The position numbers were made by a program, and so were the translations under genes. A stretch of DNA of 64,000 nucleotides, from assembly GCF_001729485.1 (NCBI RefSeq), contig NZ_CP017157.1, positions 868,001-932,000 on the forward strand. The letters run 5' to 3'. Source of the stretch: Streptomyces lydicus. Lineage in GTDB: Bacteria > Actinomycetota > Actinomycetes > Streptomycetales > Streptomycetaceae. This document shows, in pieces, positions 7,684 through 54,334 of the stretch (position 1 is its first letter; each line of letters opens with the position of its first letter). The notes under the pieces are model-generated. The model saw only the letters and a program-made list of their open reading frames with translations, was not told the origin of the DNA and did no database searches.

Positions 7684-8997
7684 ATGGCCGACGCCGCTGG
7701 ACGGCTCACCAAGCTCGCCGAGGAGGTACTGGGAAAGCCGCTCCCGGTGCGCATCCGCGCCTGGGACCGCAGCGAGTCCGGCCCGCCGGGGGCACCCGTG
7801 CTCGTCATCCGCCATCGCCGCGCGCTGCGCCGGCTGCTGTTCAAGCCCGGCGAACTGGGCCTGGCCCGCGGCTGGGTGGCCGGTGACCTGGACATCGAGG
7901 GCGACCTCTACGAGGCGCTCGATCTGCTTGCCGGGCTGCTCTGGGAGCGCGACGCGGCCACCGCATCGCCGCGGGCCGCCGCGCTGCGCGCCCTGGCCCG
8001 CCCGGAGCTGCGCGCCGCCGCCCGGGAACTGCTGGCCCTGGCCGGCGCCCCCGTACCGCCCACCCCGCCCGCCGAAGAGGTCAGACGCCGCCGGGGACCG
8101 CTGCACACCCTGCTGCGTGACAAGGAAGCCATCAGCCACCACTACGACGTCGGCAACGACTTCTACGCGCTGGTCCTCGGCCCGTCCATGGTCTACTCCT
8201 GCGCGTACTGGGGGACCGACGAGGACCCCGCCGCGAGCCTGGAGGACGCCCAGCGCGACAAGCTCGACCTGATCTGCCGCAAGCTCGGCCTCAAGGAGGG
8301 CCAGCGGCTGCTGGACGTGGGCTGTGGCTGGGGCTCGATGGTGCTGCACGCCGCCCGCGAGTACGGCGTACGGGCCGTCGGCATCACCCTCTCCGAGGAA
8401 CAGGCCACCTTCGCCCGCAAGCGGATCGCCGAGGCCGGGCTCGCCGACCGGATCGAGATCCGGGTGCAGGACTACCGCGAGATCAAGGACGAGCCGTTCG
8501 ACGCCATCTCCTCGATCGGGATGGCCGAGCACGTGGGCCGGGCCCGGTACGCCGAGTACGCGAGCGCGCTGTACGCGCTGCTGAGGCCCGGCGGACGGCT
8601 GCTCAACCACCAGATCGCGCGGCGGCCGGTGGTCGACGAGGCGTCGTACCGCGTCGACGATTTCATCGACCGCTACGTCTTCCCCGACGGCGAGCTGGCA
8701 CCGCTCGGGCGGACGGTGGCCCAGCTGGAGGACGCCGGGTTCGAGGTACGGGACGTGGAGGGAATCCGGGAGCACTACGCCCTGACGCTGCGGCAGTGGG
8801 TCGCCAACCTGGAGCAGCACTGGGACGCGGCGGTGCGCCTGACGTCCCCGGGACGGGCGCGGGTCTGGCGGCTCTACATGGCGGCGTCGGCCCTGTCCTT
8901 CGAGCGGAACCGCATAGGAGTCAACCAGGTCCTGGCAGTCCGCACCCCGGACTCGGGAACGTCGGGCCTACGCCTTCGCGAACGTAGCTGGGGCTGA
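7684..8997 (+). CDS. Cyclopropane-fatty-acyl-phospholipid synthase family methyltransferase
   Basis: This 437-aa SAM-dependent enzyme is related to CFA synthase and mycolic acid cyclopropane synthases. Its likely role is methylene or methyl transfer to unsaturated acyl chains of membrane lipids. The N-terminal ~140 residues are the lipid-binding CFA domain. Next come the HHYDVGNDFY block, the SAM motif LLDVGCGWGSMVLHAA (about 208-223), SIGMAEHVG and the C-terminal FIDRYVFPDGEL. These are all CFA-family signatures. GGAGG lies 8 nt before the ATG; a GTG inside that site is not used. The exact substrate cannot be read from sequence. Confidence 0.87.
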   Translation: MADAAGRLTKLAEEVLGKPLPVRIRAWDRSESGPPGAPVLVIRHRRALRRLLFKPGELGLARGWVAGDLDIEGDLYEALDLLAGLLWERDAATASPRAAALRALARPELRAAARELLALAGAPVPPTPPAEEVRRRRGPLHTLLRDKEAISHHYDVGNDFYALVLGPSMVYSCAYWGTDEDPAASLEDAQRDKLDLICRKLGLKEGQRLLDVGCGWGSMVLHAAREYGVRAVGITLSEEQATFARKRIAEAGLADRIEIRVQDYREIKDEPFDAISSIGMAEHVGRARYAEYASALYALLRPGGRLLNHQIARRPVVDEASYRVDDFIDRYVFPDGELAPLGRTVAQLEDAGFEVRDVEGIREHYALTLRQWVANLEQHWDAAVRLTSPGRARVWRLYMAASALSFERNRIGVNQVLAVRTPDSGTSGLRLRERSWG

Positions 8998-9346
8998 TCC
9001 CACGTTGTTGTCCGTCCTGCCGTGGGTGTTGCTCGCCGTTGCTCCCCCACTGCCTGAAGGGCGTGGGAGGTACCCCCAGCGGCGGGCGTGGGTGGTCGGG
9101 TGCGGTGCCGCTCCTCCGGACTTCGTCCTGCGGCGCGGCCCCTCCCGTAGTGGGAGAAGTAAAGGCCGGTGGGGGCGAGCGTGATCATTCACGCTCGCCC
9201 TTACCGGCCTTCAAGATTCCCTCCCATGGGAGGGGACGGACCGCAGGACGAAGTCCGGAGGGCCGGCACCGCACCCGACAACAACCCGGCCCGCCGCAGG
9301 CGCCACGGAGAGAAACCACCACGGCGGGACGGAAAACAACGTGGGA
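8998..9346. repeat. ~350-bp imperfect fold-back (inverted repeat) filling the gap between convergent genes
   Basis: The left arm (8998-9184) and right arm (9189-9346) are inverted copies around the loop TCAT. Shared blocks from the outside in are TCCCACGTTGTT-TCCGTCC, GGTCGGGTGCGGTGCCG, CTCCGGACTTCGTCCTGCGG, CCCCTCCC, AAGGCCGGT and GGGCGAGCGTGA. The left arm has ~30 extra bases (about 9042-9072). These form a small hairpin with CCCCCAC and GTGGGAGG, a motif that, from memory, recurs in Streptomyces intergenic DNA. It starts directly after one stop codon and ends two bases before the other. It could act as a strong bidirectional terminator or be a fold-back mobile remnant. Confidence 0.8.
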
Positions 9347-9347
9347 A

Positions 9348-11882
9348 CTACTCGGCCTTAATGGCCGCCAGCATGTTCAGCCGCGCCGCCCGGCGGGCCG
9401 GCCAGAGGGCGGCCAGGACGCCGACCAGGGCGGCCAGGCCGAGGAAGACGCCCATCCGGCCCCACGGCAGGACCAGTTCGTACGTCGGCATGGAGCTGCC
9501 GATCAGTTCACCGGCCGCCCAGCCGAAGAACACCCCGAGGCCGATGCCGAGGACCCCGCCGAAGAGGGAGATGACCAGGGACTCCAGGCGCACCATGCGC
9601 TTGATGCCGCGGCGGTCCAGGCCGATGGCGCGCAGCATGCCGATCTCCTGCGAGCGTTCGAAGACCGACATCGCCAGCGTGTTGATGACGCCGAGCACCG
9701 CGACGATCACGGCCATGGCCAGCAGCCCGTAGAGCATGTTCAGCAGCAGATTGATCATCTTCGCGATGCCGTCGGTGACGTCCTTCTTGTCGGAGACGGA
9801 GATCGCCGGGTTCTTGCCGAGTGCCTTGACCAGCGTGTCCTTGGTGGCGTCGGTGGCGCCGTGCTTCGTCTTGACCATCACCTGCAGGTCGGTGAGCTGC
9901 TTCTGGTGCGGCGCCAGCGTTGCGTTGTCCAGGAGGATGCCGTGGATCATCTGGTTGCCCCGGTAGACACCGGAGACGGTCAGCGTGCCCTTCTTGCCGT
10001 CCTCGAACGTGACCGGGAGGCGGGAGCCGGGGTGCCAGCCCTGCTTCGCGGCGGTGATGTCGTCCACGACCGTCCGGCCGCCGCGCAGGTCGCCCAGCGC
10101 GCCCTTGGTGAAGTCGAGCCGGGTGAGCTTCCCGAAGTCCTTGCCGTTGACGCCGGTCAGGTACTGGGGGGCGGTGCCGATGCGGGACGGGGAGTTGCGC
10201 AGCGGGCTGACGGCGGTGACCTCGTCGAGGCTGCCGAGCTTCTTTGCCACGTCCGGGGAGAGCGGCGTGTGGGTGGCCATGGAGACGACGTAGTCGGCCT
10301 TGAGTGAGGCGGTGGCCATCTTGTCGATGCCCTGCTGCACGCTGCCGGCGATCACCGTCAGGCCGGTGATCAGCGTCAGCCCGACCATCAGCGCGGAGGC
10401 CGTGGCGGCCGTACGGCGCGGGTTGCGGACCGCGTTCTGCCGGGCGAGGGTGCCGGAGATCCCGAAGGCGCGCAGCACGGGCGCGGCCAGCGCGATCAGC
10501 GGGCGGGACAGCAGCGGCGTCAGGACGAACACGCCGATCAGCAGCAGCACCGCGCCGCCGCCCATCACGGCCTTGCCGTCGGACATCCCGGTGGCGACCA
10601 GGACCCCGGCGACACCGGCGCCCGCGAACAGCGCGCCGACGGTGTTGCGCACGACCAGCGACTTGGTGGTGGCGGCGGCGTGCACGCTGCTCATCGCGGC
10701 GACCGGCGGGATCTTCGCGGCGCGCCGGCCGGGCAGCCAGGCAGCCAGGACGGTGACGACGATGCCGACCAGCAGTGCCGCCAGTACGGTCGAGGGCGAG
10801 ACCACCAGGGGGCCGTCGGGGACGGTCGCGCCGGTGCTGCTCATCAGGGCGCGCAGACCGGCGCCGATGCCGATGCCGGCGGCCAGGCCGGTGACCGCGG
10901 CGACCGCGCCGACGAGGAACGCCTCCAGCAGCACCGAGCGGGTCACCTGCCGGCGGCTCGCGCCGACCGCGCGGAGCAGGGCCAGTTCCTTGGTGCGCTG
11001 GGCGACCAGCATGGTGAAGGTGTTGGCGATGATGAAGATGCCGACGAAGAGCGCGATACCGGCGAAGGCGAGCAGGGCGGTCCGCATGCCGTTCGTGCTC
11101 TCGGCGATGTTCTCGGCCTGGTCGGCGGCGAGCTTCTTGCCGGTGGTGGCCTCGGCGCCGTCCTTGGGCAGCACCTTTTCGACGGCGGACTTCAGCGCGG
11201 TCTGGGAGGTGCCCGCCGTGGCGCGGACGTCGATCTCGCTGAACGTGCCGGGCGCCGCGAACAGCTTCTGCGCGGTCGGGGTGTCGAACAGCGCGAGGCT
11301 GCCGCCGGCCGCGACGGTGCCGTCGTCGGTGGTGAAGACGCCGGTCAGCTTCTGCTCGCGGACCGGCCCGTCGACGGAGATCCGCACGGTGTCGCCGACC
11401 TTGTAGCCGGCCTTGGCCGCGGTGTGCGCGTCCAGCGCGAACTCGTGCGGGCCCTCGGGGGCGGCGCCGCTGCGCATCGGGTAGCGGGCGTCCTTGCCGT
11501 CCTTGCCGGCGAAGTAGTTGCCGCCGCGGGTGGAGAAGCCGTTGCCGATCAGCTGCCCCTTCTTGTCGGCAATGGCGGTGAAGCCGGAGACGGAGCCGGT
11601 GGCGGAGGCCGCGCCGGGCACGTGGGCGGCCTTGTCCAGCAGCTTCTGGTCGAGTGCCGGGGCCGCGCCGGGCGCGCCGGTGCGGCTGTCGGAGGACCGC
11701 GGCTGGATGGCGACGTCGACGTTGTCGTAGCCCTTTTGGGAGCTGGCCCGGAACGCGTCGGAGACGGTCGAGGTGAAGACCAGGGTGCCGGAGACGAAGG
11801 CCACGCCGAGCATGACGGCGAGGACGGTCATCAGCAGCCGGGCCTTGTGCGCGAGCACATTGCGCAAGGCGGTACGGAACAT
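9348..11882 (-). CDS. ABC transporter permease, MacB/FtsX type
   Basis: This 844-aa permease has the double FtsX layout. There is an N-terminal membrane segment (about 15-40, LLMTVLAVMLGVAFVSGTLVF) and a large extracytoplasmic MacB-like domain. Three membrane segments follow, with the LLRAVGASRRQVTRSV motif typical of FtsX loops. A second such half ends with LRAIGLDRRGIKRMVRLES and the final membrane helices. Such permeases extrude lipids, peptides or drugs, or act as mechanotransmission complexes; the substrate is unknown. The ATPase gene lies 50 nt upstream on the same strand. Confidence 0.9.
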   Translation of the reverse strand: MFRTALRNVLAHKARLLMTVLAVMLGVAFVSGTLVFTSTVSDAFRASSQKGYDNVDVAIQPRSSDSRTGAPGAAPALDQKLLDKAAHVPGAASATGSVSGFTAIADKKGQLIGNGFSTRGGNYFAGKDGKDARYPMRSGAAPEGPHEFALDAHTAAKAGYKVGDTVRISVDGPVREQKLTGVFTTDDGTVAAGGSLALFDTPTAQKLFAAPGTFSEIDVRATAGTSQTALKSAVEKVLPKDGAEATTGKKLAADQAENIAESTNGMRTALLAFAGIALFVGIFIIANTFTMLVAQRTKELALLRAVGASRRQVTRSVLLEAFLVGAVAAVTGLAAGIGIGAGLRALMSSTGATVPDGPLVVSPSTVLAALLVGIVVTVLAAWLPGRRAAKIPPVAAMSSVHAAATTKSLVVRNTVGALFAGAGVAGVLVATGMSDGKAVMGGGAVLLLIGVFVLTPLLSRPLIALAAPVLRAFGISGTLARQNAVRNPRRTAATASALMVGLTLITGLTVIAGSVQQGIDKMATASLKADYVVSMATHTPLSPDVAKKLGSLDEVTAVSPLRNSPSRIGTAPQYLTGVNGKDFGKLTRLDFTKGALGDLRGGRTVVDDITAAKQGWHPGSRLPVTFEDGKKGTLTVSGVYRGNQMIHGILLDNATLAPHQKQLTDLQVMVKTKHGATDATKDTLVKALGKNPAISVSDKKDVTDGIAKMINLLLNMLYGLLAMAVIVAVLGVINTLAMSVFERSQEIGMLRAIGLDRRGIKRMVRLESLVISLFGGVLGIGLGVFFGWAAGELIGSSMPTYELVLPWGRMGVFLGLAALVGVLAALWPARRAARLNMLAAIKAE

Positions 11883-47577: not shown

Positions 47578-48516
47578 TCACTCGTCGATCATCAGGCCCT
47601 TGCGGAGCTTCACGAGCGTGCGGGAGAGCAGACGGGAGACGTGCATCTGGGAGATGCCCAGCTCCTCGCCGATCTCGGACTGCGTCATGTTGGCGACGAA
47701 GCGCAGCGAGAGGATCGTGCGGTCACGCGAGGGGAGTTCGGCGATCAGCGGCTTGAGGGACTCGACGTACTCGATGCCCTCCAGGCCGTGGTCCTCGTAG
47801 CCGATGCGGTCCGCCAGCGCGCCCTCGTTGTCGTCCTCCTCGGGCTGGGCGTCCAGCGAGCTCGCGGTGTAGGCGTTGCTCGCGGCCATCCCCTCGACGA
47901 CCTCGTCACGGGTGATGTCCAGGCGGTCGGCGAGTTCCTGCACCGTGGGGGCGCGGTCCAGCTTCTGGGCCAGTTCGTCGCCGGCCTTGGCGAGGTCCAG
48001 CCGCAGTTCCTGCAGCCGCCTGGGTACCCGCACCGACCAGCTGGTGTCGCGGAAGAAGCGCTTGATCTCGCCGACGATGGTCGGCATCGCGAACGTCGGG
48101 AACTCCACGCCACGGCTGAGTTCGAAGCGGTCGATCGCCTTGATCAGGCCGATCGTGCCGACCTGGACGATGTCCTCCATGGGCTCGCTGCGGGAGCGGA
48201 ACCGGGAGGCCGCGAACTTCACGAGGGCGAGATTGAGCTCGACCAGGGTGTTGCGGACGTACGCGTGTTCGTGGGTGCCTTCCTCCAGCGATTCGAGCCG
48301 CTCGAAGAGGGTCTTGGACAGAGCCCTCGCGTCCACCGGGCCCACCTCGTCGAACGGCGGGATCTCGGGCAGACCGTCGACCTCAGACATTCCTGCCGGG
48401 TCTGGTTCGGCAGGGCCGGACTGGGAAGGGATCTGACCGGTGAGGTCGGACAGGGGTGTCGACGATGCGGACTGCCGGTAATCGTCGGTACGCAGTTCGT
48501 CGAGCCGGGGTGACAT
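47578..48516 (-). CDS. SigB/SigF/SigG-family RNA polymerase sigma factor
   Basis: This 312-aa alternative sigma factor has an acidic N-terminal extension (about 1-70). Region 2 follows (LVKFAASRFRSRSEPMEDIVQVGTIGLIKAIDRFELSRGVEFPTFA), then VGEIKRFFRDTSWSVRVPRRLQEL, region 3 (APTVQELADRLDITRDEVVEGMA) and region 4 (LPSRDRTILSLRFVANMTQSEIGEELGISQMHVSRLLSRTLVKLR). Gene order with hutI and the divergent STAS and RsbW-like genes resembles sigI of S. coelicolor (from memory), linked to osmotic stress. The start at 48516 is preceded by GGAGGAG. Confidence 0.93.
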   Translation of the reverse strand: MSPRLDELRTDDYRQSASSTPLSDLTGQIPSQSGPAEPDPAGMSEVDGLPEIPPFDEVGPVDARALSKTLFERLESLEEGTHEHAYVRNTLVELNLALVKFAASRFRSRSEPMEDIVQVGTIGLIKAIDRFELSRGVEFPTFAMPTIVGEIKRFFRDTSWSVRVPRRLQELRLDLAKAGDELAQKLDRAPTVQELADRLDITRDEVVEGMAASNAYTASSLDAQPEEDDNEGALADRIGYEDHGLEGIEYVESLKPLIAELPSRDRTILSLRFVANMTQSEIGEELGISQMHVSRLLSRTLVKLRKGLMIDE

Positions 48517-48661
48517 GGTCTCCTCCATCGTTCTCGGCATATGGCTGCCGAAGCCTCTCCGTGAAGCTGCGGTGTGCGGCGCCTCCAAAGCCGGCCGTTT
48601 CGAATGTGTGCTTCTACGCCTACCTGGCTTTGCAGGAAGATGGCAAGTGCGTGTTGTCCGT

Positions 48662-48675
48662 ATATTGAGCAATAT
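48662..48675. promoter_or_regulatory. AT-rich palindrome between the sigma factor and STAS genes
   Basis: ATATTG-AG-CAATAT is a perfect 6+6 inverted repeat in a very GC-rich genome, midway between the divergent sigma factor and antagonist starts. It looks like an operator; the binder is unknown. Confidence 0.45.
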
Positions 48676-48777
48676 GCGGATTGTTCGGCTACCCGTGCGC
48701 GTCAGGAAGGCGTAGGGTTCGACGAGCGCAGTCGTAAGCAATTCAGTCGTCTAGACAGCAAGAGGGGTGCGCGTCGC

Positions 48778-49146
48778 ATGGACCGCGGGACGGTCGGCAG
48801 TGCAAGCCGGGGCCGGCTGCATGTCGAGATCCGCCATCACGGCGCGAGCGCGGTCGTGACGGTGACAGGTGAGCTCGATCACCACACCGCCGACCTGTTG
48901 CGTGAGTCACTCGAAGGCTGCCTGGACGACGGCTATGCGCGTCTGGTGGTGGACTGCTCACGCCTTGAGTTCATGGACTCCACCGGGCTCAATGTGCTGC
49001 TCGGCGCACGCCTGAGAGCGGAGGCCGAGGGGGGCGGGGTCCACCTGGCCGGAATGCAGCCGGTGGTGGCCCGGGTTTTCGAGATCACTGGCGCGGAGGC
49101 GGTTTTCACGGTGCATGACTCGGTCGATACCGCCCTGTCCGACTGA
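48778..49146 (+). CDS. STAS-domain anti-sigma factor antagonist
   Basis: This 122-aa RsbV/SpoIIAA-like protein frees a sigma factor by binding its anti-sigma factor when unphosphorylated. The STAS core runs from about 14 to 118: AVVTVTGELDHHTADLLRESL, then LVVDCSRLEFMDSTGLNVLLGARLRA with S68 as the probable phosphorylation site. It lies upstream of the RsbW-like gene and divergent from the sigma gene, so all three probably form one partner-switching module. GAGGGG precedes the ATG. Confidence 0.92.
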   Translation: MDRGTVGSASRGRLHVEIRHHGASAVVTVTGELDHHTADLLRESLEGCLDDGYARLVVDCSRLEFMDSTGLNVLLGARLRAEAEGGGVHLAGMQPVVARVFEITGAEAVFTVHDSVDTALSD

Positions 49147-49159
49147 CGTGACACGGAGT

Positions 49160-49182
49160 GCCCGGAACGTTGCGTTCCGGGC
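49160..49182 (+). terminator. Small hairpin after the STAS gene
   Basis: A perfect 10-bp stem (GCCCGGAACG at 49160-49169, CGTTCCGGGC at 49173-49182) with a 3-nt loop lies 13 nt past the stop. It may attenuate read-through into the anti-sigma gene, which starts 139 nt later. Confidence 0.5.
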
Positions 49183-49320
49183 GCGTAGTACGAGTCACAA
49201 CTTCCGTGCCCAAGAAGTGGGTGTTCTCACGGTCCGGTCGGGCAGGAGACATCTGAATCCGTTGCAAGCAGTCAGTTATCTGTTCTCCGTGAATAGGCGA
49301 ATCGGTGAGGTGAAGCGCTG

Positions 49321-49824
49321 ATGAGCACCACCCGGCCGTATCCGCCGGGCGATCTCGGCCCGGAGTCGGGCGGCGCCGGTGCCTCCGCCGCCGTGCCGGC
49401 TGCCGCCGTGCCCGCGGGCCAGATCCGCCGGCTGCGCCTGGCGGGCACCAGGGGTGCCGTGGCGCGGGCCCGTGACTTCGCCCGGGAGGCCCTGCACGAC
49501 TGGGGCTGGCTGCCGGCTGCCGGGGCCGACCAGCGGGCCGCAGCCGAGGATGCGCTGCTGGTCGTCTCGGAGCTGGTGACCAACGCCTGTCTGCACGCCG
49601 AGGGCCCCGAGGAGCTGCGGCTGCGCTGCGCCGGCAAGGTGCTGCGCCTGGAGGTCAGCGACCTGGGCGCGGGCTCACCGGCGCCCCGCAGCCCGCACCG
49701 CCCCGGCCGTCCCGGTGGTCACGGCATGTTCATCGTGCAGCGGCTGTGCCTGGACTGGGGTGTCGTACGTCACCCCGACGGCGCGGGCAAGACCGTGTGG
49801 GCGGAGCTCGCGGCGCCGGCCTGA
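49321..49824 (+). CDS. RsbW-like anti-sigma factor, GHKL ATPase/kinase
   Basis: This 167-aa protein has a disordered Pro/Ala-rich N-terminus (about 1-35) and a HATPase_c domain. The N-box is AAEDALLVVSELVTNACLHAEG, the G1-like part is LEVSDLGAGSPAP, and the G2 part is GRPGGHGMFIVQRLCLDWGV. Such proteins bind a SigB-type sigma factor and phosphorylate a STAS antagonist. The likely partners are the sigma factor at 47578 and the STAS protein at 48778. The ATG has only a weak GGTGA upstream. Confidence 0.9.
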   Translation: MSTTRPYPPGDLGPESGGAGASAAVPAAAVPAGQIRRLRLAGTRGAVARARDFAREALHDWGWLPAAGADQRAAAEDALLVVSELVTNACLHAEGPEELRLRCAGKVLRLEVSDLGAGSPAPRSPHRPGRPGGHGMFIVQRLCLDWGVVRHPDGAGKTVWAELAAPA

Positions 49825-50098
49825 AGACGGGGCGGGAAGCCGGGGAGGAAGCCGGGAAGGGTGAGCGCGGGTCTGCGGGCCCGCGCTTTGTCGTGTGCGG
49901 CCGACGCCCCCGCGCCCGCCGGACGCGGCCGCGCGCCCGGCGCCGGCAGGCCGGAATCCCACCGCCGCGGCGCGCCCGCGCCGATCGGGGCTGCGCTGTG
50001 CCTTCCCTCGGCACGGTCCCCGGCGTACCTTGAGCGGCCAATCTGATGTGCCGTCAGTAACGTCCGGCGGTACGCCCATCGGGGAAGGGGAACGGAAC

Positions 50099-50812
50099 GT
50101 GGCCCGCTTCTACGAACAGCACGGCAGGTGTCCGCGCCGGGCGGCCGGCCTCGCCGCTGCCGTGGCGATGGCGGCGGGGTCCGCGGTGATGCTCACCGCG
50201 CCGGCCGCCCACGCCGAGGTCGTCGACGTCAACTACCAGTGCAAAACGCCGATCGGGAACAAGGGCGCGGTCTCCCCCATCGACATCAAGGGCACCGCCG
50301 CGGGCGGCGGGTACAAGCTCGTGATGTCCTTTCAGAAGGGCGTCTCCTCCAGCCCCGTCGAGCTGGGCAAGGGCGCCATGAAGCCCAGCGCACTGATCAA
50401 GCTGGGCGGCGCGGAGTCCGGGACGGTGCCCGTCTCCGGACCGCCGAACGACCAGGCGATACCCGCCAACACCCCCATCAAGATCAGTGACTTGAGCGGG
50501 ACGTACACCCCCAAGGGCAGCGGCAAGGTCACCTTCACGGCCTCCACGCTCACCATCAAGGCCCTCGGTACGACCACCACCTGCACCCCCGCCAACAGCC
50601 CCAAGCCCTCGCTGACCCTCGACGTGAAGGGCTCCGGCGGCGGCACCTCGGGCGGCTCCGGAGGCACGTCCTCCGGTGGTTCCTCCGGAGGCGAGCTGCC
50701 GCAGACCGGGCCCGCGGACTCCGCGGTCGCGCTGGGCACCTTCGGCGGCACGGTGCTGCTGGCCGGCGCGGCCGGGGTGCTCTGGCTCACCCGGCGCCGG
50801 CAGCGCGCCTGA
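50099..50812 (+). CDS. Secreted sortase substrate (LPQTG) with a two-cysteine domain
   Basis: This 237-aa protein has a signal peptide (about 1-39, ending AHA) and one ~130-residue domain (about 42-175) bounded by C48 (YQCKTPIG) and C162 (LGTTTTCTP). A Gly/Ser linker follows, then a sorting signal LPQTG at 200-204 with a hydrophobic tail and RRRQRA. Sortase should attach it to the wall. The domain recurs in the product of 52904. I know no function; it faintly resembles DUF6801-type secreted actinobacterial proteins. AAGGGG precedes the GTG. Confidence 0.85.
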   Translation: MARFYEQHGRCPRRAAGLAAAVAMAAGSAVMLTAPAAHAEVVDVNYQCKTPIGNKGAVSPIDIKGTAAGGGYKLVMSFQKGVSSSPVELGKGAMKPSALIKLGGAESGTVPVSGPPNDQAIPANTPIKISDLSGTYTPKGSGKVTFTASTLTIKALGTTTTCTPANSPKPSLTLDVKGSGGGTSGGSGGTSSGGSSGGELPQTGPADSAVALGTFGGTVLLAGAAGVLWLTRRRQRA

Positions 50813-50871
50813 CCCACCGCGCACCGCCCCGCCTCCGCACCGTGTACGCGCACGAGCACCAGGAGCCGCCG

Positions 50872-51843
50872 ATGCCGTCCCGTCCTCGCACAGCGCTCCG
50901 CGGCGCGGCCCTCGCGGCAGCCGCCGGCCTGCTGTGCCCCGCCCCGGCCGCGGCCGCGCCGGCCGGCCCCGGCTGGTCCGCCGCGCCCGCGCCCGCCGCC
51001 GGGGCCGCCCCGGGCCCGCAGGACCGCACGTACTTCTACCTGGAGGGCGCGCCGGGCACCGTCATGACCGACCGGCTGTCCCTCGGCAACCCCACCGGAC
51101 GCGCCGTCACCGTCCGGCTGCGCGGCTCCGGGACCGGCTCGTGGCTCGCGCTCGCCGCACGGGAGGTGAGGGTCCCGGCGCGGACCCGCGCGAGCGTCCC
51201 GTTCACGGTCACGGTGCCGCGCGACGCCGCCCCCGGCGAGCACCCCGGCACGCTCGTCGCGTCCAGTGGCGGACCGGACGGCCGGCGGGCCGCCGTACCG
51301 GTCCATCTGCGGGTGACCGGGCCGCGGCTGGCGGCACTGACCGTCGAGAACGTGTCGGTGAGCGGCCGGGGGAGCGCCGCGGTCATCCGGTACACGCTGG
51401 TCAACCGCGGCAACACGGCGCTCGATCCGCGGCTCGCCGTGCGCGCCGACGGGGTGTTCGGGCCGGTGCTGCGGCGCCCCGCCCGCCCGCTGCCGTCCCG
51501 GCTGCTGCCCGGCCGGCGCGTCGAACGGACGGAGAACTGGCCGGATCCGCCCGCGCTGGACGCGGTCGCGGTGCGGCTCACGGTGACCGCGCAGGGCGGC
51601 GCGTACGGGTCCGCCACGGCCTCGTACGCGCCGGTCGCGTGGGGCGCCCCCGCCGGCGCGGCGCTCGTGCTGGCGGCGGGGGCGGGTGGCCTGGTGGCCG
51701 TACGGCGACGGCGCCGCGCCGCGAAGGGCGGTACGGCGCCGGGCGGTCGGGCCGCCGGCGGTCGGGACCCCGGCCGGGACGAGGCCGAAGAGGCCGGAGC
51801 AGCAGGGCAGTTGGCGGGGTCGGCGGCAGGAGGGCGGGCGTGA
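50872..51843 (+). CDS. Secreted membrane-anchored protein with a DUF916-like beta-sandwich
   Basis: This 323-aa protein has a signal peptide (about 1-30). An Ig-like region follows (about 48-240, YFYLEGAPGTVMTDRLSLGNPTG, PARTRASVPFTVTVPRDAAPGEHPGTLV, VIRYTLVNRGNTALDP). This pattern resembles DUF916/WxL-interacting and NEW3 domains. One membrane helix (about 258-278) and a basic cytoplasmic tail end it, so it is a type I protein facing the wall. AGGAG precedes the ATG. The stop overlaps the next start (GTGA). A role in presenting the neighbouring surface proteins is inference. Confidence 0.8.
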   Translation: MPSRPRTALRGAALAAAAGLLCPAPAAAAPAGPGWSAAPAPAAGAAPGPQDRTYFYLEGAPGTVMTDRLSLGNPTGRAVTVRLRGSGTGSWLALAAREVRVPARTRASVPFTVTVPRDAAPGEHPGTLVASSGGPDGRRAAVPVHLRVTGPRLAALTVENVSVSGRGSAAVIRYTLVNRGNTALDPRLAVRADGVFGPVLRRPARPLPSRLLPGRRVERTENWPDPPALDAVAVRLTVTAQGGAYGSATASYAPVAWGAPAGAALVLAAGAGGLVAVRRRRRAAKGGTAPGGRAAGGRDPGRDEAEEAGAAGQLAGSAAGGRA

Positions 51844-52904
51844 ACGGCGGGGCGGAGCGGCAGACGGGCACACCGGCCGGGGCCGGCCGGACCACGGCCC
51901 CCAGCGGGCGGCGGGCCACGGCCGTGCCGGCGCTGTGCGCCGCGCTGGCGCTGGCCCTGGCGCTGCTGCCGGCCGTCGCCGGGGCGGCCGACCGGGCCGA
52001 CGACGGCCCGCGCACGCTGCAGCTCTCCCGCAAGGAGGCCGGCAAGGGCGGCAGCATCACGGTGACCGGCCGCGGCTGGCGGCCCAAGGCCCTGCTCACC
52101 CTGCTGATCTGCGGGCAGAACATGATCGGCGGCACCAACTCCTGTGCGAACGGGGACGGACGGGCCGTCACCACCGACGCGCACGGTGCCTTCCGCCGGA
52201 GCCTGCCGGTCGCCGAGCCGCCCAAGCCCTGCCCCTGTGTGGTGCACGTGGCGACCGTGACGGGTGAACCGGACGCCGCGGACGCCGCGTTCAAGGTCGC
52301 GGGCCATCCGGTGGCACCGCTGCCCGACGAACGCACCGGCGGCCGGCTGACGGTGCTCGCCCCGCCCCGGCTGACGGGCAGCAGCGGCCTGCTGACGTGG
52401 TTCGGCGCCCCGCCGCAGCGGGAGCTGACCGTCACGGTCGGCAACGTCGGCTCGGTGCCGGCCAAGGACCCGGTCTTCGCGGTCGGCACCGCGCACGGCG
52501 TCCTCGCCCCCGAGTGGGAGGAGCAGCAGTGGCGGGGGACCGTACCCGCCGGGAAGAAGGCCGAGGTCAGGCTGCCGGTCGAGCTGGCGGCCGGCGCGCA
52601 CGGCGACTATCTGGTCTCTCTGAAGTACGGCGACAAGGTCCTGGTCGAGCAGCCCTGGGGTGTCGGCAGGCCCTGGGGCGTGACGCTCTTCTGGGTGCTG
52701 TTGTGCCTGGTGATCCCCACGGCGGTGTTCCGCATCGGCATGGCGATCGTGGACCGGGTACGGCCGCGCCGTACGGCACGCACTGCCACCGCACAGCGCA
52801 CCACGCCGGCCGGCGGATCCGCCGCGCTGCCGTGGTTCACCCCGGACACCGCACCGTCCACCACCACATCAACCGAACGACCGACGTCGAAAGGTTCTGC
52901 GTGA
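51840..52904 (+). CDS. Secreted membrane-anchored protein with a neocarzinostatin-like Ig domain
   Basis: This 354-aa protein has a long signal region (helix about 26-45). A first Ig-like domain follows (about 55-155, GGSITVTGRGWRPKALLTLLICGQ, CANGDGRAVTTDAHGAFRRSLPV), resembling the neocarzinostatin/ESAT Ig-like fold. A second CARDB-like domain (about 185-280, RELTVTVGNVGSVPAKDPVFAVG) precedes a C-terminal membrane helix (about 292-310, TLFWVLLCLVIPTAVFRIG) and a cytoplasmic tail. It is coupled on both sides to its neighbours. The function is unknown; the domains suggest binding at the cell surface. Confidence 0.78.
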   Translation: MNGGAERQTGTPAGAGRTTAPSGRRATAVPALCAALALALALLPAVAGAADRADDGPRTLQLSRKEAGKGGSITVTGRGWRPKALLTLLICGQNMIGGTNSCANGDGRAVTTDAHGAFRRSLPVAEPPKPCPCVVHVATVTGEPDAADAAFKVAGHPVAPLPDERTGGRLTVLAPPRLTGSSGLLTWFGAPPQRELTVTVGNVGSVPAKDPVFAVGTAHGVLAPEWEEQQWRGTVPAGKKAEVRLPVELAAGAHGDYLVSLKYGDKVLVEQPWGVGRPWGVTLFWVLLCLVIPTAVFRIGMAIVDRVRPRRTARTATAQRTTPAGGSAALPWFTPDTAPSTTTSTERPTSKGSA

Positions 52905-54334
52905 TGAGGCAACGGAGGAGAGCTGCGGTGGCCTCGGCGGCCGCGCTGGTGCTCGCGGGCGCGGGCGTGCTGACCGCGGCCGGCACCGCCCGGGCAGCGG
53001 AGGTGTCGTACAAGACGGAGTGTCTGCCGCCGCCGATATCGGGGCTGCCGCCGATCGAGGGCACCACGAAGGTGGACGTCAGCGCGCCCGCGACGGCGAA
53101 GGTGGGGGACGAGATCACGGTGGTCCTCAAGACGGTGGAGGGGGCGTCCAAGAACCCCGACATCCTCGACCTGGGCGAGAACACCGTGCAGCCCACCGGC
53201 ACGATCAAGGTGGCCGGGGCACAGACCGGCGATCTGCCGATGCAGGGACCGCGGCAGAACCCGCCGATCCCCAAGGGCAGTCCGATGAAGCTGTCCGACA
53301 TGACGGGCAAGCTGAAGCTGACCAAGCCCGGTGAGGTCACCCTGACGCCCGGCTTCTACAACATCAACGTCAACAAGCCGATCTCCACGGACACCAAGTG
53401 CTCGCCCAAGGAGACGGTGCGGCCCGCGGTCACCATCAAGGTCACCGACGGCGGGGGCACCACCACCGGCGGTACGACGGGCGGCACCGGCGGCGGCAGC
53501 ACGGGCGGTTCGACCAGCGGCACCACCGGCGGTTCGACGGCCGGCACCAGCGGCGGCACCAGCGGCGGCGCGGCGGGTGGCGGTACGGACGGCGGGACGA
53601 GCGGCGGCACCGCGGGCACGTCCGGCGGCAGCGGCGGAACGACCGGCGGCAGCGGCGGCGACCCCGACGGCACCGCGTACAAGGGCAAGGAAATCCAGGT
53701 CCCGTACGCCTGCAAGACCCCCATCGGGGACAAGAAGGCGACCTCGCCGGTCCAGATCAACGCGGTGAAGAAGGGCGGCGGTTACGACCTGACGGTGCAG
53801 TTCAAGAAGTCCGTCATGAACAGTCCCGCGGACATCCCCAAGGACTCGGTCAAGCCGTCCATGGACGTCAAGGTCGGCGGCGCGGACAAGGGTTCGGTCA
53901 AGGTGACCGGCCCGACCAACGCCCAGCCGATCAAGTCGGGCGACCCGATCACGGTCCCCGACCTGAAGGGCACCTACAAGCCGGGCGCCACCGGCAAGGC
54001 CACGCTGACCCCGGGCGTGCTCACCGTCAACGCCCTGGGGACGACCACCACCTGCACCCCGGAGAAGGACCCGGGCGTCTCGCTCGCCCTGGACACCTCG
54101 GCGCAGCAGGGCGGTACGTCCGGGGGCTCGGCGGGCGGCGCCGCGGCCTCCGGCGGCAGCGCGGCGGGGCCGGCCAGTGTCTCGGGCGGCAGCGGCAGCA
54201 GCGGCGGCCTCGCGGAGACCGGTGCCGGCGACCACGGCGCGCTGACCGCCCTCGGCCTCCTCGCCGGGACGGCCGTCCTGCTGGGCGGTGCGGTCTTCAC
54301 GTTCCTGCCGCGGCGCCGGACCCGGATCCGCTGA
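52904..54334 (+). CDS. Large sortase substrate (LAETG) with two copies of the two-cysteine domain
   Basis: This 476-aa protein has a signal peptide (about 1-31). The first domain (about 34-175, C40 and a cysteine in DTKCSPKE) is followed by a Gly/Thr/Ser repeat linker (about 184-256). A second domain (about 265-400, YACKTPIGDKKATSP to LGTTTTCTP) is closely similar to the one in the 50099 product. A second Gly/Ser stretch and the sorting signal LAETG (436-440) with hydrophobic tail and RRRTRIR end it. The ATG shares a base with the previous stop (TGATG); a GTG three bases upstream is possible. Confidence 0.83.
   Translation: MRQRRRAAVASAAALVLAGAGVLTAAGTARAAEVSYKTECLPPPISGLPPIEGTTKVDVSAPATAKVGDEITVVLKTVEGASKNPDILDLGENTVQPTGTIKVAGAQTGDLPMQGPRQNPPIPKGSPMKLSDMTGKLKLTKPGEVTLTPGFYNINVNKPISTDTKCSPKETVRPAVTIKVTDGGGTTTGGTTGGTGGGSTGGSTSGTTGGSTAGTSGGTSGGAAGGGTDGGTSGGTAGTSGGSGGTTGGSGGDPDGTAYKGKEIQVPYACKTPIGDKKATSPVQINAVKKGGGYDLTVQFKKSVMNSPADIPKDSVKPSMDVKVGGADKGSVKVTGPTNAQPIKSGDPITVPDLKGTYKPGATGKATLTPGVLTVNALGTTTTCTPEKDPGVSLALDTSAQQGGTSGGSAGGAAASGGSAAGPASVSGGSGSSGGLAETGAGDHGALTALGLLAGTAVLLGGAVFTFLPRRRTRIR
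53453..53670 (+). repeat. In-gene low-complexity GGT/GGS repeat region
   Basis: About 73 codons encode almost only Gly, Thr, Ser and Ala in GGTTGG/GGTSGG-like units. It links the two folded domains of the LAETG protein and is a likely site of slippage and length variation. Confidence 0.8.

Follow-up and report, generated by a model that had tools for sequence, protein, structure and literature searches.

A conserved Streptomyces surface-protein operon with a WxLIP-like partner shares its operator with a steroid thiolase gene

What do four exported proteins, encoded side by side and apparently destined for anchoring at the cell surface, do for a Streptomyces cell? The question is raised by a 64,000-nucleotide stretch of Streptomyces lydicus DNA (RefSeq assembly GCF_001729485.1, contig NZ_CP017157.1, positions 868,001 to 932,000 of the forward strand; hereafter the window, meaning this whole stretch), in which genes that we call A, B, C and D follow one another. 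A and D encode sortase-type proteins, and B and C encode membrane-anchored partners, one WxLIP-like and one neocarzinostatin-like. The operon is real and conserved; it is a new actinobacterial version of the surface sets built around WxLIP proteins, and its tie to steroid catabolism is strong and was not expected. For its function we offer a well-motivated hypothesis. An operator shared with catabolic genes and co-inheritance with steroid catabolism, both absent from an earlier note on this DNA, are the first handle on that function.

The evidence for the steroid link begins upstream of A. A profile search with B in a genome collection gave 336 confirmed stretches, and the best 80 of these 336 were kept, all Streptomyces and representing 80 named species; this set is biased toward close relatives. 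The site before A, in most loci CTGATGTG[C/T]CGTCAG, is a 15-bp inverted repeat lying 41 bp from the gene. Its core, CTGAT-4 bases-CGTCAG, precedes A in 80 of the 82 loci examined (the window's own locus, L090 and 78 of the 80 named species), and the two misses (L048 and L084) are loci that begin inside the operon. Across the 82 loci the CTGAT and CGTCAG columns are invariant and the flanks more variable. The pattern CTGAYGNNNCRTCAG is also specific: it has 77 sites in the 80 named loci, which add up to 1.25 Mb, and 76 of them sit before A, with none for the reversed control.

The S. lydicus genome as a whole contains 39 CTGAYGNNNCRTCAG sites, versus one with the reversed control. Among the 37 that we examined, approximately 20 precede genes that we read as catabolic from their N-termini, 10 lie beside other genes, 6 fall inside genes and 1 stands before A. 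The catabolic gene types comprise acyl-CoA synthetases, acyl-CoA dehydrogenase, flavin reductase, thiolases, P450, aldehyde and alcohol dehydrogenases, luciferase-type monooxygenases, amidohydrolases, a short-chain dehydrogenase/reductase (SDR) and nitronate monooxygenase. Twelve of the sites cluster in a catabolic island at C1:562802-635499 (L103, L104, L112-L114), and probably mark a steroid/lipid catabolism regulon of Streptomyces with CTGAYGNNNCRTCAG as its operator. The island further holds acyl-CoA synthetases, dehydrogenases, thiolases and DUF35-like proteins.

One site lies at a divergent gene pair encoding a P450 and a steroid 3-ketoacyl-CoA thiolase (NF005889, 686 bits vs a cut-off of 515). 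A lipid-transfer protein of the island, not directly behind a site, also exceeded its specific cut-off (578.7 vs 469 bits); these two were the only ones to do so among the ten proteins scanned. A site stands ~130-245 bp before the steroid thiolase gene in all five genomes for which positions were listed (G000, G009, G013, G018 and G022), and four of the five (G000, G013, G018 and G022) have it before A as well. The operon and the thiolase gene thus have an operator in common, with the exception of G009, whose A gene lacks the site. Every one of 31 same-genus genomes has sites (2 to 42 forward CTGAYGNNNCGTCAG matches each, 0-2 for the reversed control); the fewest were found in G010, G017, G027 and G029, all without the operon. 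In 14 chosen stretches from G009, G013, G018 and G022, the sites again mostly precede the same types of catabolic genes.

Operon and thiolase are also inherited together. In a second sample of 120 genomes picked by kinship, 73 of them of the same genus, NF005889 was matched over its cut-off in 71. Genes A and C are found together in 54 of the 73 same-genus genomes, with strong matches for A, and both are missing from the other 19, where G031 gave a single weak A match (E 6e-4). The thiolase is present in all 54 genomes with A and C, versus 3 of the 19 without (Fisher p = 1.8e-13), counting G031 as thiolase-bearing on a match in two pieces that together reach 596 bits. On an rpoB tree of 72 of the 73 genomes (G001, with a partial rpoB, was left out), 17 changes were counted for the operon and 14 for the thiolase. 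Among 11 independent pairs with good support, the thiolase goes with the operon in a mean of 8.5 and against it in none (median p = 0.004). Two control traits do not follow the operon, namely gas vesicles (p = 1.0; 2.8 pairs same, 1.1 opposite) and MCE (p = 0.28; 1.1 same, 2.1 opposite). In a family of the same order (f3), all 10 genomes that have B and C carry the thiolase and none of the 4 that lack them does; MCE is absent from all 14.

The earlier note had proposed a survey of whether the four genes always co-occur. When run, this survey upheld the constant pairing of A with C and showed a partial breakdown for the other two. In the named loci, A lies upstream of B in 78 of 80, the remaining two being the loci that begin within the operon. 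Where B is followed by 3.5 kb or more of sequence (73 loci), C comes next every time (69 established by script, 4 by reading), and D is present in 66 of these loci and missing in 7. A reading of ten unusual cases showed that, of the 54 same-genus genomes with A and C, at least five lack B (G009, G014, G026, G061 and G068) and at least five lack D (G009, G014, G026, G018 and G035). As A and C occur in the same genomes while B or D is missing from some of them, A and C are the core of the set, and B and D are optional. In G012 the operon is split (L160, L161), with A and its operator ~2 Mb away from B-C-D; there, A with its operator lies beside what we take to be a hutI-like gene, and B-C-D lie beside a peptide transporter, without the operator. 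Contig ends obscure the arrangement of A relative to the other genes in G046 (L167, L168). Across 36 genera, sequence searches found A in 1 (its own genus only), B in 6 and C in 3.

The window has four same-strand reading frames here (Table 1), with signal-peptide-like N-termini (by eye) and overlapping B, C and D genes, in agreement with the earlier description of a four-gene operon. A and B are separated by 59 bases; the B/C and C/D overlaps measure 4 bases and 1 base. A simple codon model scores all four as coding, placing the start of D 24 bases later and that of B at an upstream GTG; we took the listed ATG of B, where its relatives begin. Both B and C end in a membrane segment (by eye, and for B also by structure model). 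Since the same gene order recurs across Streptomyces, the operon is not a chance array. The nearest relative of B, at 97% identity, comes from a record itself named Streptomyces lydicus.

Table 1. Position and character of the operon genes and of the proposed operator (window coordinates).
Feature	Position	Strand	Description
Gene A	50099..50812	+	Start GTG, 237 aa; exported two-cysteine-domain protein with LPQTG sorting signal
Gene B	50872..51843	+	Start ATG, 323 aa; exported type I membrane protein, two Ig-like domains and membrane helix, WxLIP-like
Gene C	51840..52904	+	Start GTG, 354 aa; exported membrane protein, neocarzinostatin-like first domain
Gene D	52904..54334	+	Start ATG, 476 aa; exported protein, two two-cysteine domains with a Gly/Ser/Thr-rich linker between them, LAETG
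15-bp inverted repeat CTGATGTGCCGTCAG	50043..50057		Proposed operator, 41 bp 5' of gene A

Adjoining the operon, window positions 47578-49824 encode a SigB-type sigma factor (by eye), a STAS protein and an RsbW-like kinase; the kinase gene is the upstream neighbour of A in loci L152-L159, save where a contig end or rearrangement intervenes.

The individual proteins bear out much of what had been read from the letters alone. A, which ends in LPQTG, a hydrophobic stretch and a basic tail, was confirmed as a sortase-type substrate by TIGR01167 (23.1 bits vs a cut-off of 15.9); its match to PF00746 stayed under the cut-off (18.7 vs 20 bits). The corresponding C-terminus of D (LAETG, hydrophobic stretch, basic tail) was recognised by eye, and no Pfam or NCBIfam model matched D at E ≤ 1. 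The two-cysteine domain common to A and D is real: A is 51% identical to the second D domain over 134 aa (E 3e-45), the first D domain being more distant (29% to A). Two cysteines, C10 and C124, are invariant across 48 aligned two-cysteine domains, and the domain of A is modelled as all beta with a pLDDT of 92.5. A sequence search of the S. lydicus genome gave seven sortase-domain matches over the cut-off. In the f3 locus L166 the A homologue is immediately preceded by a sortase gene (positions 8808-9493; PF04203, 105.6 bits).

For B, the DUF916-like lead of the earlier note proved right in fold: the predicted structure has two Ig domains and a C-terminal membrane helix, and its three best PDB matches are Enterococcus faecium WxLIP chains. 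By sequence, B matched PF06030 (DUF916) weakly (17.8 bits, cut-off 27.3), and 25 of 27 aligned B members (window B included) matched it at E ≤ 1. Three of four distant relatives scanned pass the cut-off (L142, 28.2; L134, 30.3; L163, 29.7 bits), and L164 (24.5 bits) falls under it. PF11797 (DUF3324) gave no match at E ≤ 1 in B or in the 27 aligned members, nor did the WxL domain PF13731 in A, C or D. Because the operon has no WxL domain, it is WxLIP-like and stands outside the WxL clusters proper. The suggestion that C is neocarzinostatin-like stood in part, in that matches to PF00960 (21.8 bits, cut-off 25) and NF040680 (30.8 bits, cut-off 86) were obtained, both weak and neither reaching its curated cut-off. 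The first domain of C has four cysteines arranged as two close pairs. The neocarzinostatin family is known for binding small hydrophobic ligands, and its chromoproteins shield a toxic ligand.

Genes related to B occur in a wider range of settings, and in most loci read the distant ones come after exported proteins (for L139-L141 no genes were called by the codon model). The protein upstream of B is A-like in sequence in f3 and in a second set of Streptomyces loci (hhalign probability 95.6%, E 1.2e-8, for the A profile against the L142 protein), and its C-terminal end gives weak WxL matches. Eleven proteins beside distant B genes were scanned, of which 6 matched PF13731 weakly (E between 2.3e-4 and 0.043), all short of the cut-off. 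A second operon type, X2-B (L132-L134, L137 and L148), mostly near era, consists of a gene for a two-cysteine protein, with a weak WxL-like match in L134, followed by a B-type gene; the operator precedes X2-B operons in five of seven loci from Streptomyces and in two of three from f3. Elsewhere, B-type genes stand behind genes for HtaA-domain proteins (L143, L145) or for metallophosphoesterase proteins (L144, L146 and L147, the last with a weak WxL match), and genes for DUF916 beside metallophosphatases are described in the neighbourhood of Ang-2 (PMC12537917). The L143-L147 layouts suggest a more general actinobacterial anchoring scheme. It appears that display in actinobacteria follows a WxL/WxLIP-like scheme whose heads differ, and the window operon would be a version of it with sortase signals in place of the WxL-like end. 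The earlier idea of a display complex analogous to those of low-GC Gram-positives is supported in so far as there is a conserved surface-protein operon with a WxLIP-like partner; an obligatory four-part complex is not supported, given the genomes that do without B or D.

How, then, would such a set serve the cell? The computed results on which an answer can build are the structure of the operon, the common operator, the co-inheritance with the steroid thiolase and the WxLIP-like fold of B. In view of the common operator and the repeated co-variation, the operon is best read as taking part in steroid use, and as the products look exported and anchored, the step involved is most likely the capture or presentation of sterols, or contact with sterol-bearing matter. 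On balance, we lean towards the operon being the surface set of a steroid (sterol) catabolism regulon, serving sterol acquisition. What we infer, namely a regulator with its sign, a complex of the proteins, and the binding and uptake of sterol, is as follows. Sortase would covalently fix A and D, with their two-cysteine beta domains, to peptidoglycan, while B and C, the membrane-anchored Ig protein and its neocarzinostatin-like companion, would keep A and D in place, or touch them, in the space from membrane to wall. A regulator acting as a repressor at the 15-bp site may, on sensing steroid, release the operon along with the acyl-CoA, thiolase, P450 and other catabolic genes. The set would then capture hydrophobic sterol, or present the cell to sterol-bearing material, for entry into the cell, the likely binding site being a hydrophobic pocket, either of C or of the two-cysteine domains.

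Mce4 systems are the sterol importers of mycolic-acid actinobacteria, and it is through them that actinobacterial steroid uptake is best known. PF02470 (MCE/MlaD) gave no match at E ≤ 1 in A-D and none in the S. lydicus genome, and 34 of the 54 same-genus genomes bearing operon and thiolase have no MCE either. Another entry route is therefore needed in these strains, for which the operon is a candidate. A more specific proposal, which we put forward tentatively as possible and rather doubtful in its full form, is a Mce-independent sterol acquisition machine in which A/D and C would trap sterols at the wall for transfer to the membrane, with the WxLIP-like protein as the scaffold that keeps them in place.

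Several observations weigh against a surface set for sterol acquisition. Near the sites, the P450, the synthetase, the dehydrogenase and one thiolase stayed under their cut-offs, two proteins had no match, and in G013 a cholesterol-oxidase-like gene, with a site 24 bp away, reached 114 bits against a cut-off of 850. With most site-near catabolic genes under curated cut-offs, the word 'steroid' leans mainly on one thiolase. The operator itself is absent from G009 (L152), which has A and C, and sites are many in G003, G028 and G030, three of the seven operon-less genomes in the site count. Sites before the operon always have the CTGAT left half and mostly a TGY spacer, and those elsewhere are more variable, so that a second regulator with a similar site could act at the operon. 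As to inheritance, three same-genus genomes (G003, G030 and G031) carry the thiolase without the operon, and G091 and G118 carry B and C without a thiolase over the cut-off. The 17 operon changes on the rpoB tree match the mean for shuffled labels (16.9), and thus the tree is perhaps poorly resolved or transfer frequent. Outside the genus A was not found by sequence, the distant thiolase-bearing genomes G090, G098, G100 and G117 have MCE and no match to A, B or C, and B and D are absent from some operon-bearing genomes.

Some of these points can be turned into other explanations. The operon could encode ordinary envelope proteins of a general surface structure, its operator serving another regulator with a similar site and its thiolase link reflecting shared strain ecology. 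The fixed CTGAT half and near-fixed spacer, the neighbouring stress-type sigma, STAS and kinase genes, the dispensability of B and D, and the three genomes with thiolase and no operon would all fit, but the related X2-B operons elsewhere have the same operator, and the co-variation (8.5 of 11 supported independent pairs, none opposite) is followed by neither control, so that we regard this explanation as very improbable. Somewhat better, and still improbable, is protection or buffering, in which the surface proteins would sequester toxic steroids, detergents or polyene-like compounds encountered or formed in the course of sterol breakdown. The first domain of C, akin to chromoproteins that shield a toxic ligand, speaks for such a task; against it, C stays under both curated cut-offs and the operator-bearing genes that were read are catabolic, not biosynthetic.

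The regulon evidence, operator and co-variation alike, equally fits adhesion rather than uptake: hyphae might stick to sterol-containing remains of fungi, plants or insects, with the operon co-induced with sterol catabolism as both are useful. The WxLIP/WxL clusters of low-GC Gram-positives are described as surface platforms contacting hosts (PMC10599100). D, with its long Gly/Ser/Thr-rich linker, would suit such a task, but no adhesion-type domain was recognised in Pfam/NCBIfam scans of the four proteins, and C, invariant along with A, is similar to a family that binds small hydrophobic ligands, which suits capture better. We consider adhesion unlikely, if a serious competitor to sterol acquisition.

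The operon is a concrete, deletable candidate for the missing steroid-uptake step in Mce-less Streptomyces, and it carries the WxLIP scaffold idea, known from Firmicutes, into actinobacteria. A Mce-independent route would, if true, explain the substrate supply of Mce-less Streptomyces with steroid catabolism genes, and the regulon with its 15-bp site offers a probe for fishing the regulator. In the passages available from the open-licence PMC literature on DUF916/WxL, sortase, neocarzinostatin/LPXTG, steroid TetR and Mce4/sortase topics, we did not find the operon described.

Among known systems, the WxL/WxLIP (DUF916-DUF3324) clusters of Lactobacillales and Bacillales, including Csc, resemble the operon in the architecture of B, its WxLIP-best structure and the grouping of exported proteins in an operon; LPXTG proteins often occur in WxL clusters too, and more than 91% of 938 WxL sequences are from Firmicutes (PMC9772566). 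Unlike these clusters, the window operon has no WxL domain, its B has no PF11797 match, WxL-like ends appear only in related loci and always under the cut-off, and a neocarzinostatin-like fourth partner and an operator common to catabolic genes are added. The Ang-2 neighbourhood, as far as the available text of PMC12537917 goes, shares a DUF916-like partner and the layout of L144, L146 and L147, but has other heads and no two-cysteine sortase substrates, C-type protein or sterol link. Neocarzinostatin-type enediyne apoproteins resemble the first domain of C, with four cysteines in two close pairs, whereas C is membrane-anchored and under both cut-offs; no enediyne biosynthesis gene was seen among the window genes read (45-58 kb). 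Mce4 would share the proposed task of sterol acquisition and the tie to steroid catabolism, but the operon proteins have no MCE domain. Finally, sortase-anchored Streptomyces proteins such as the long chaplins (PMC13251363) are attached to the wall by a sortase signal, as proposed for A and D, whereas the operon described here has other domains and a genetic tie to catabolic genes rather than to aerial development.

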